Assembly (NCBI RefSeq): GCF_002742645.2
Contig: NZ_CP033875.1
Location: 2,954,001 to 3,018,000 of the forward strand
DNA length: 64,000 bases
Direction of reading: 5' to 3'
Source of the DNA: Caulobacter sp. FWC26
GTDB lineage: Bacteria > Pseudomonadota > Alphaproteobacteria > Caulobacterales > Caulobacteraceae
This document shows positions 33,820-51,118 of this stretch, in pieces. The notes below the pieces were generated by a model. It did not search any database. It was given only the letters and a program-made list of their open reading frames with translations, and was not told the DNA's origin. A program made the position numbers and the translations under genes. Position 1 is the first letter of the stretch. Each line of letters begins with the position of its first letter.

Positions 33820-33958
33820 GACACGCGGCCTTGGGCGAGCGACGGACGATCAGATGTTGCTCCGGAATTGAGCGGCGCACCCCGCAAGCGACCGCGACCT
33901 CGCGTCGCAAGCGATAGCCCCTTCCCTTTCGCCGACGGCGGTCCAATATCCGTCCTGT

Positions 33959-33971
33959 GTTGTTCAACAAC
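33959..33971 (+). promoter_or_regulatory. Short inverted repeat before the small ORF
   Basis: GTTGT-TCA-ACAAC, five perfect pairs around a three-base centre, directly upstream of the Shine-Dalgarno. It could be an operator or a small hairpin controlling access to the ribosome site. Function is inference. Confidence 0.4.
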
Positions 33972-33972
33972 T

Positions 33973-33987
33973 GAAAGGAGGTGATCC
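33973..33987 (+). promoter_or_regulatory. Extreme Shine-Dalgarno, 15-base match to the 16S 3' end
   Basis: GAAAGGAGGTGATCC is complementary over 15 bases to the 3' end of alphaproteobacterial 16S rRNA (GGATCACCTCCTTTC, from general knowledge). Its GGAGG core is seven bases before a GTG start. No other ribosome site I inspected in this window comes close; typical ones here match five to six bases. Confidence 0.8.
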
Positions 33988-33988
33988 A

Positions 33989-34057
33989 GTGTCTCATTGT
34001 CTCCAACCGCGGTCGCAAGTCGTGACCTGGAGCCCGAAGAGCGAGGTCTCCGCCTAA
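33989..34057 (+). CDS. Predicted 22-residue small protein or leader peptide
   Basis: GTG start, 22 residues (SHCLQPRSQVVTWSPKSEVS in the middle), TAA stop. The residues are mixed hydrophilic with one cysteine and one tryptophan, no membrane or signal segment, no obvious domain. I do not recognise a family. Support is the 15-base Shine-Dalgarno at the right spacing and a perfect 12-pair intrinsic terminator 57 bases after the stop, which together define a dedicated transcript on the plus strand. It could be a small protein, a leader whose translation matters more than its product, or a ribosome-binding RNA. Confidence 0.6.
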   Translation: MSHCLQPRSQVVTWSPKSEVSA

Positions 34058-34113
34058 GGCGTTGAGCGCCAAGGGTAAAAGTCACAGGCTGCGAGAGCGG
34101 CTACGACGATGGA

Positions 34114-34145
34114 GGGCCGTCCCGAGCGATCGGGGCGGCCCTTTT
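34114..34145 (+). terminator. Intrinsic terminator of the small-ORF transcript
   Basis: A 12-base-pair stem (GGGCCGTCCCGA with TCGGGGCGGCCC, one G-T pair) with a GCGA tetraloop, followed by TTTT. The T run is only on the plus-strand side, so it serves the small-ORF unit and not ivd, which ends 19 bases beyond on the other strand. Confidence 0.85.
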
Positions 34146-38520: not shown

Positions 38521-38605
38521 TGGTGCGGTCGAGAAGACTCGAACTTCCACGGGTTGCCCCACAGCGACCTCAACGCTGCGCGTCTACCAATTCCGCCACG
38601 ACCGC
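38521..38605 (-). tRNA. tRNA-Leu (anticodon GAG)
   Basis: An 85-base class II tRNA. The acceptor arms GCGGTCG and CGACCGC pair exactly, the discriminator is A and CCA is encoded. The anticodon loop is TTGAGGT, giving GAG (reads CUC/CUU leucine codons). A long variable arm follows the anticodon stem, as in leucine tRNAs, and the T arm has GTTCGAGTC. Confidence 0.95.
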
Positions 38606-50410: not shown

Positions 50411-51118
50411 ATGACCTTGCAAGCCCGTGACGCCACGCCGCCGATCCTGATCGTGCCGGGCCTCTACAACTCCGGGCCCGATCACTGGCAAACCCATTGG
50501 GAACGCGCGCTGCCGGGCGCGGTGCGCGTCGAGCAGCAGGACTGGGAGCGCCCCCTGCTGGGCGACTGGACCATCAGTCTGGCCGAGGCCGTACGCCAGC
50601 GGCCCGGCGCGATCCTGGTGGCTCACAGCCTGGGCTGCGCGCTGGTCGCCCACTTCGCCCAGGTGACGGGCGGGCGCGGCGTGGGCGGGGCCATGCTGGT
50701 GGCGCCGGCCGACGTCAATCGCGAGGGGCCGGCGGGCCGCCTGCTGGTCGGCTTCTCGCCCATTCCCCGCCAGCGCCTGCCGTTTCCGAGCCTGGTCGTG
50801 GCCAGCCGCAACGATCCCTATGTCGAGATCGAGCGCGCCGAGGCCTTCGCGCGCGGCTGGGGGTCCGAGTTCGTCGACCTGGGGCGAGCGGGCCACATCA
50901 ATGTGGCCTCCGGTCACGGTGCATGGCCAAAGGGGCGAGCCCTGCTGAACCGCCTGGTCCGGCGCGTCACGGAAGACGCTCGACAGAAGGAAAGGAAGTT
51001 GGTGCGGGCGGTCGGGGTCGAACCGACACTCCTTTCGGAACCGGATTTTGAGTCCGGCGCGTCTACCAGTTTCACCACGCCCGCACATCTTCGCCTGCGC
51101 GAAGGGTGGTCTTCCTAG
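50411..51118 (+). CDS. RBBP9/YdeN-family alpha/beta hydrolase with tRNA-antisense C-terminus
   Basis: A 235-residue protein. Residues 1-190 form an RBBP9/YdeN-type serine hydrolase: the nucleophile elbow is AILVAHSLGCALVAHF, the aspartate region is VVASRNDPYVEIERA, and the histidine is in GRAGHINVASGHG. The family usually ends there (~185 residues). The last ~35 residues are encoded by the antisense strand of the tRNA-Leu(CAA) gene at 51000-51084 and its flank, with no stop earlier. Whether the tail is really made is unclear; transcription could also end within the tRNA region. Confidence 0.75.
   Translation: MTLQARDATPPILIVPGLYNSGPDHWQTHWERALPGAVRVEQQDWERPLLGDWTISLAEAVRQRPGAILVAHSLGCALVAHFAQVTGGRGVGGAMLVAPADVNREGPAGRLLVGFSPIPRQRLPFPSLVVASRNDPYVEIERAEAFARGWGSEFVDLGRAGHINVASGHGAWPKGRALLNRLVRRVTEDARQKERKLVRAVGVEPTLLSEPDFESGASTSFTTPAHLRLREGWSS
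51000..51084 (-). tRNA. tRNA-Leu (anticodon CAA)
   Basis: An 85-base class II tRNA. Acceptor stems GCGGGCG/CGCCCGC pair, the discriminator is A and CCA is encoded. The anticodon arm CCGGA-CTCAAAA-TCCGG gives CAA (reads UUG). A long variable arm with a GAAA loop marks it as leucine type. It lies inside and antisense to the end of the alpha/beta hydrolase gene. Confidence 0.95.

Follow-up and report, generated by a model that had tools for sequence, protein, structure and literature searches.

Which function can a tiny reading frame have whose ribosome site matches the complete 3' tail of 16S rRNA? Such a frame is located in a 64,000-nt stretch of the Caulobacter sp. FWC26 genome, which was analysed as a whole and is called the window here. 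Its upstream neighbour encodes a patatin/cNMP protein on the + strand, its downstream neighbour an acyl-CoA dehydrogenase on the - strand. A first-pass annotation made from the letters had considered the unit separate from both, and this view holds. The best explanation, to which we assign a probability of roughly one half, is a translated regulatory RNA that would engage 30S subunits and be gated by its own structure. The following features are relevant:

33943..33949, + strand: possible -10 element CCAATAT, weak, inferred
33959..33971, no strand assigned: short inverted repeat GTTGTTCAACAAC, of which the family keeps the CAACAA part alone (33965-33970, plus the T before it)
33965..34141, + strand: match to the full model (1-159) of RF01867 (CC2171), 136.7 bits, E 1.1e-28
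33973..33989, + strand: extended Shine-Dalgarno sequence GAAAGGAGGTGATCCAG, 17-nt complement of the 16S 3' end
33989..34057, + strand: 22-codon ORF MSHCLQPRSQVVTWSPKSEVSA, GTG start, TAA stop; frame kept, amino acids not
33995..34001, + strand: 5' arm CATTGTC of the long-range stem, codons 3-5 (Rfam structure, MFE, swap test)
34026..34031, + strand: CCTGGA, candidate 16S-tail mimic facing TCCAG of the site (pairing excess at family level, weak here)
34105..34111, + strand: 3' arm GACGATG of the long-range stem (Rfam structure, MFE, swap test)
34112..34145, + strand: intrinsic terminator with GCGA loop and T tail (sequence, Rfam structure, MFE)

The ribosome site and its RNA family

The ribosome site begins with GAAAGGAGGTGATCC at 33973-33987, followed by AG. 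Together, these are 17 contiguous nt that pair with the 16S 3' end of the same genome, and the last base of GAAAGGAGGTGATCCAG is the G of the GTG start codon (33989). The first-pass annotation had rightly recognized a full complement of the tail but had set its length at 15 bases. Since the host 16S gene ends with ...GGCTGGATCACCTCCTTTCT, the complement comprises 17 nt, i.e. the whole free 3' tail and slightly more. The computed energy of the duplex between site and tail is -35.0 kcal/mol. GGAGG is found within the site at 33977-33981, and seven bases separate it from the GTG; this distance and the 22-codon ORF (33989-34057) had been read correctly from the beginning. The 14-nt core AAAGGAGGTGATCC occurs twice in the 4.87 Mb genome, once at the site itself and once antisense to the 16S end. 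The earlier statement that the site goes far beyond an ordinary ribosome site was right. When up to two mismatches are allowed, the core has 35 genome sites vs. 5 for the reversed-pattern control; the other 33 all carry exactly two mismatches. A 13-mer scan of the site across the 64-kb window, again with up to two mismatches, was unremarkable (2 matches vs. 1.04 expected).

The locus is a full-length member of the Rfam family RF01867. Its score clearly exceeds the gathering score of 75 bits, it has the same 5' motif, and alignment and MFE structure both display the long-range stem and the terminator of the consensus structure. Therefore, the existence of the locus is not new: It belongs to a described RNA family. 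The CC2171 RNA was reportedly first described by Landt et al. in 2008. The structure printed by Rfam differs from our model in that it contains no site-mimic pairing and no marked ORF. Another difference concerns the range of the family. At E ≤ 1e-3, RF01867 is present in 148 of 299 genomes of the order and in 61 of 289 genomes of the class, above the cut-off in just 41/299 and 10/289. Forty matches, most of them below the cut-off, were read individually. In each of them, AAAGGAGGTG is accompanied by a start codon and a short ORF. The start codon is followed by TC in 38 of the 40, and a start-proximal stem of lineage-specific sequence and a terminator can be recognized by eye in most.

Motif searches extend this range. 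A strict motif was found in 47 of 250 class genomes, in 46 of them with a single match. With a looser motif, for which the matches were read in part, 24/51, 43/49 and 38/51 genomes of three other families of the class were positive. In a draw across the phylum, the looser motif was detected in 29 of 50 in-class vs. 2 of 150 other genomes, and both out-of-class matches have non-canonical spacers. Reversed-pattern controls yielded no match for the strict motif, 1, 0 and 0 matches in the three families and 4 in the phylum draw, which rules out a chance motif. False matches antisense to 16S were rejected, too: The pattern demands TGTC after the site, where 16S antisense reads AGCC. The RNA must be absent or diverged in many class genomes, as 203/250 lack the strict and 21/50 the looser motif. 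Judged by these counts, the family is wider than the Rfam cut-off shows and frequent in some alphaproteobacterial families. The window copy belongs to an RNA family that is widespread in Alphaproteobacteria and covered in part by Rfam CC2171.

The matches listed, at least 120 stretches, come from hosts such as Phenylobacterium, Brevundimonas, Methylobacterium, Bosea, Microvirga, Rhodopseudomonas, Roseococcus, Belnapia and Acidisoma. The comparisons below are mostly based on a set of 276 members without near-duplicates (identical first 90 nt), without sequences shorter than 120 nt and without L208 and L210, a pair of ordinary gene start and non-family match. Three true members with 26 codons (L202, L206, L207) were left out by hand. 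Two genomes (G001 and G006) carry true members with a short spacer, and one genome (G310) has two copies of different subtypes (L183, L184). The only other Rfam matches of the window at gathering thresholds are two tRNA genes on the - strand (38524-38605 and 51003-51084).

In the literature searched, CC2171/RF01867 turned up as a single entry among the structure improvements tabulated for Rfam 15 (PMC11701678) and as a predicted sRNA in Mesorhizobium huakuii (PMC5596092). Literature searches that had most subscription journals outside their scope yielded no functional paper on CC2171/RF01867. Within the same scope, we did not find in print the 17-base 16S complement as the core of the RNA, nor its wide reach in the class, the conservation of a frame without its peptide or the site-mimic pairing.

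Open frame, long-range stem and terminator

In none of the 276 members does frame 0 meet a stop before codon 14, and in all of them it has ended by codon 35, so that the ORFs examined span 14-35 codons. For the remaining two frames, an early stop was found in 124 and 95 members. Among 50 non-redundant members (< 70% identical), early closure was found in 0 cases for frame 0 and in 27 and 20 for the others, and shuffled bodies close early in 16/50 on average with a minimum of 8 (200 rounds). Hence, the frame is kept open beyond chance. The first-pass annotation had proposed a search for motif and reading frame in related genomes, and its outcome is positive: The motif is conserved in relatives and the frame open in 276/276 members.

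The encoded amino acids behave differently. In 82 independent ORF pairs of equal length, 219, 230 and 202 substitutions after codon 5 affect codon positions 1, 2 and 3 (p=0.40), and an earlier set of 50 pairs gave 119, 137 and 123 (p=0.49). The synonymous share of codon changes equals that in both wrong frames. Thus, no purifying selection on amino acids beyond the RNA constraint was detected in these 82 and 50 pairs, although an overlapping RNA structure constraint could mask weak amino-acid selection. The pI of the member peptides ranges from 4.05 to 12.0 and their GRAVY from -1.46 to 1.14. A very highly made peptide as the selected product, one of the options raised from the letters, is not borne out by these data. 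In these comparisons, translation looks selected, whereas the peptide does not. An open frame without peptide conservation suggests that ribosome loading and not the peptide is the job of the RNA. One ORF variant has 14 codons (MSxxKRCHLxxxAR; L108 from Rhodopseudomonas, L142 and L322-L324), and in L322-L324 the stem appears by eye to be shifted to CTCGCTGG:CCAGCGAG.

The long-range stem links the first codons to the bases directly 5' of the terminator. It reads CATTGTC:GACGATG in the window, and elsewhere CATTGTC:GACAATG, GTGAG:CTCAC, CATGGTC:GACCATG, GCGATTTC:GAAATTGC or ATGAGATT:AATCTCAT. In a swap test with one member for each of 43 distinct 5' arms (the non-family sequences L208 and L210 included), arms pair with their own partners at 12.80 vs. 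9.71 ± 0.31 for swapped partners; 0 of 1000 swaps reached the score of the own partners. By this comparison, the stem from the first codons to the foot of the terminator covaries. Compared with shuffled sequence, folding of the entire element is better by 5.3 standard deviations. L011, a copy from the same genus, has an insertion of about 85 nt 3' of the ORF (match of 263 nt vs. about 177) with both stem arms kept.

In the MFE structure, the terminator is a 14-pair hairpin with a GCGA loop (34112-34143) followed by a short T run. The first-pass annotation had reported terminator and loop properly; its 'perfect 12 pairs' are approximate, as the 14 pairs include G-U. A consensus terminator scan listed a weaker terminator upstream (33937-33954) and missed the one at 34112..34145 because it asks for 5 T in 8. 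The inverted repeat noted in front of the site exists at 33959-33971. However, the palindrome is not a feature of the family: A comparison of 49 non-redundant relatives singles out just TCAACAA and the CG in front of AAAGG. In the same 49 relatives, promoter-like boxes seen by eye would place the transcript start about 15 nt before AAAGG; a consensus promoter scan of the window called no promoter. The predicted free-standing transcript has roughly 180-190 nt.

A candidate mimic of the 16S tail within the RNA

If the site can bind the 16S tail, it might also bind an imitation of this tail in its own RNA. In 146 non-redundant members, the mean energy of the pairing between site and body is -17.0 kcal/mol vs. 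-14.1 kcal/mol with reversed bodies. For 47 such members, -16.7 vs. -13.7 kcal/mol was obtained with shuffled bodies; this run drew on every terminator-bearing representative and on half of the remaining members, chosen at random. Tests that depend on the terminator comprise the 253 of 276 members in which a crude finder saw one. When the spacers of 139 non-redundant members were permuted, the own spacer paired better, and 0 of 5000 permutations matched it. In several members, spacer and mimic have changed together: CCUG/CAGG in L187 and L222, CCCG/CGGG in L191 and CCGAU/AUCGG in L173 and L229. A plasmid copy from Skermanella mucosa (L353) has, by eye, CUUG:CAAG instead of the usual CCAG:CUGG.

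The effect is unevenly distributed. A second permutation run gave 0/3000 family-wide. Within the subtypes, the numbers were 202/3000 (CHC), 213/3000 (SSx), 462/3000 (Rhodobacter-like) and 720/3000 (sphingomonad-like), corresponding to p values of about 0.07-0.24, except for the mixed remaining group with 0/3000, which carries the spacer effect. The Rhodobacter-like subtype shows almost no pairing excess (13 members, mean z -0.42, 0/13 at p ≤ 0.05). For 17 members with a CCAA spacer, the own spacer (-14.69) is not better than CCAG (-15.09) or CCGA (-15.62). In the window copy, the duplex between site and body has -12.9 vs. -12.3 kcal/mol for shuffled sequence, which is not significant, and the best duplex lies elsewhere in the ORF. 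Nested folding revealed no difference in site accessibility from shuffled downstream sequence, and the position of the mimic correlates at most weakly with that of the stop codon (rho 0.15, p 0.07). In summary, family-wide pairing of an internal mimic with the site is moderately supported by these energies and permutations; in some subtypes and in the window copy, support for it is weak or absent. Since the site-mimic helix crosses the long-range stem, both together would form, as a model, a pseudoknot around the start codon.

Possible functions and competing explanations

All subtypes have in common the 16S-tail complement, the start codon, an open short frame and the start-proximal stem. The sequence comparisons establish the family with its motif, the open frame, the long-range stem and a peptide free of detectable constraint. 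Selection would keep a landing site, a start, an open frame of 14-35 codons and the stem, but not the peptide, and the capture of a 30S subunit with a short run of translation is likely the function itself. In the idle state, the long-range stem would hold the start region, and in many lineages the crossing pairing with the internal 16S-tail mimic would also hold the site. The tail of a free 30S subunit is predicted to out-compete this pairing (-35 vs. about -17 kcal/mol), and translation would then open the RNA structure. Once transcribed and translated, the RNA might sense or titrate initiating ribosomes, serve as a ribosome-driven self-switch or self-stabilizing device, or work by exposing a pairing region. 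A titrator would need high abundance. Among the options of the first-pass annotation, a ribosome-binding RNA or one that sequesters ribosomes would be the best fit.

A more specific version can be put forward only tentatively: The RNA would read the supply of free, correctly finished 30S subunits. Paired with its own imitation of the tail, it would flip upon binding, and the ORF would carry the ribosome through the switch, which would account for a conserved frame without a conserved peptide. If a translated, 30S-engaging RNA is indeed present, a catalogued, apparently uncharacterised sRNA family from Caulobacter would represent the visible portion of an RNA gene that is widespread in Alphaproteobacteria, and translation would be under selection without selection on its product. 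The RNA would be a concrete candidate for how Alphaproteobacteria monitor or buffer initiating ribosomes. In addition, an open frame on a small RNA would not have to mean a functional peptide.

Several other explanations have to be weighed. The one that comes closest, possible but on balance doubtful, is a dual-function sRNA that base-pairs in trans and whose ORF is translated just to modulate stability or the exposure of the pairing region. Size, own terminator and stand-alone location of the RNA agree with this idea, Rfam classes CC2171 as an sRNA, and dual-function sRNAs are known in the class, with rnTrpL as an example (PMC10117765). Yet, no conserved single-stranded seed was identified, and the bases that never vary are those complementary to the 16S tail. 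It appears unlikely that an ordinary tiny gene uses an exceptionally strong ribosome site to make a functional micropeptide. Its frame would be always open and its length range narrow, as found for the members examined, and of 154 CATTG-like members, 119 have their first CTGG in phase 2, the Trp phase. However, codon positions are unbiased, pI and GRAVY vary as widely as described above, and neither Pfam nor NCBIfam contained a match for the five peptides tested. Moreover, 20 of the 139 members with a CTGG have the first one in another phase, although at least one of these (L104) also possesses an in-phase copy; 15 members lack it. A peptide reading based on a TW motif was rejected, since the conserved Trp codon coincides with the CTGG in the internal stretch.

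No likelier than a micropeptide is a passive 30S decoy or a stabilizer near the 5' end that works without gating by a mimic, an explanation that overlaps with a translated, 30S-engaging RNA. STAB-SD sequences are 5' mRNA stabilizers in which an SD-like site near the RNA 5' end binds 30S and protects from decay; GAAAGGAGG is the STAB-SD sequence of Bacillus cry3A. Our RNA has a site of the GAAAGGAGG type that is expected to hold 30S and would lie about 15 nt from a 5' end inferred from promoter-like boxes alone, and a version without gating agrees with the weak or missing mimic signal in the Rhodobacter-like subtype and the window copy. In contrast to STAB-SD, the 16S match is much longer here and followed by a start codon, and the RNA is free-standing with a conserved short ORF. 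Stabilizer or decoy alone would leave unexplained why the frame is open through codon 14, why the stem covaries and why site and body pair in excess family-wide. Improbable is a sponge for sRNAs with anti-Shine-Dalgarno loops, of which the alphaproteobacterial R8 family with its core UUUCCUCCCU is an example. CCUCC would be a pairing partner of GGAGG, and CrfA is reported to do such sponging in Caulobacter (PMC12559287), but conservation spans, by eye, the bases matching the 16S tail (GAUCC, 5' GAAA) and not the R8 core. Least probable by far is a leader-peptide attenuator. A short ORF followed by a terminator is compatible with it, but the downstream gene in the window is located on the other strand, and according to crude ORF calls the nearest downstream ORF is co-oriented at 100 and opposed at 130 of 230 loci. 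Clustering of 201 loci (the non-family L208 and L210 included) yielded lineage-specific neighbours with a largest cluster of 30, and a Pfam scan of 30 of the 84 neighbour ORFs returned 25 with a match and no common theme. Conserved synteny was not seen in these three comparisons. With lineage-specific neighbours in mixed orientation, the RNA does not look like the leader of another gene, so that an attenuator is largely refuted.

The preferred reading, an RNA that is translated and gated by its own structure, has parallels in other systems. SAM-II and preQ1 riboswitches are pseudoknots that gate a Shine-Dalgarno site. Similarly, the site is part of a predicted crossing helix near the start codon here; different from these riboswitches, no downstream gene is controlled, and the proposed competitor is the 16S tail instead of a ligand. 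Short translated ORFs on small RNAs are also known from Alphaproteobacteria: rnTrpL/peTrpL, Pos19 and, in S. meliloti, SEP1. Of these, peTrpL is reported to act as a peptide; the peptide sequence of the RNA described here is not conserved. SEP1 comprises 23 aa, is conserved in Rhizobiaceae, has a pI of 4.18 and ranked first in translation efficiency among 54 unannotated candidates (PMC10117765). SEP1 may be the same gene, in which case translation would be shown. Nine members of one group (f177) encode 23 aa peptides that start with MSS; their pI values of 4.56-9.17 do not include the pI published for SEP1. Schrader 2014 states that two earlier ncRNAs, unnamed in that passage, are translated.

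A few copies have noteworthy locations. No match was obtained on plasmids when L317 or members of three further subtypes (L263, L301, L315) served as queries. The Skermanella mucosa copy mentioned above (locus 2501-2551 of plasmid pSM-3, NZ_CP086109.1) follows directly after the genes for ribonuclease J and the GTPase HflX, and the search lists a second place for the family in the same plasmid record. On plasmid pNYY1_1 of Methylobacterium radiotolerans (L354, NZ_CP090580.1), a copy lies in a region for which no genes are listed, and umuD is about 2 kb away. Another copy (L149) adjoins a gene for an exoribonuclease with an RNB domain.
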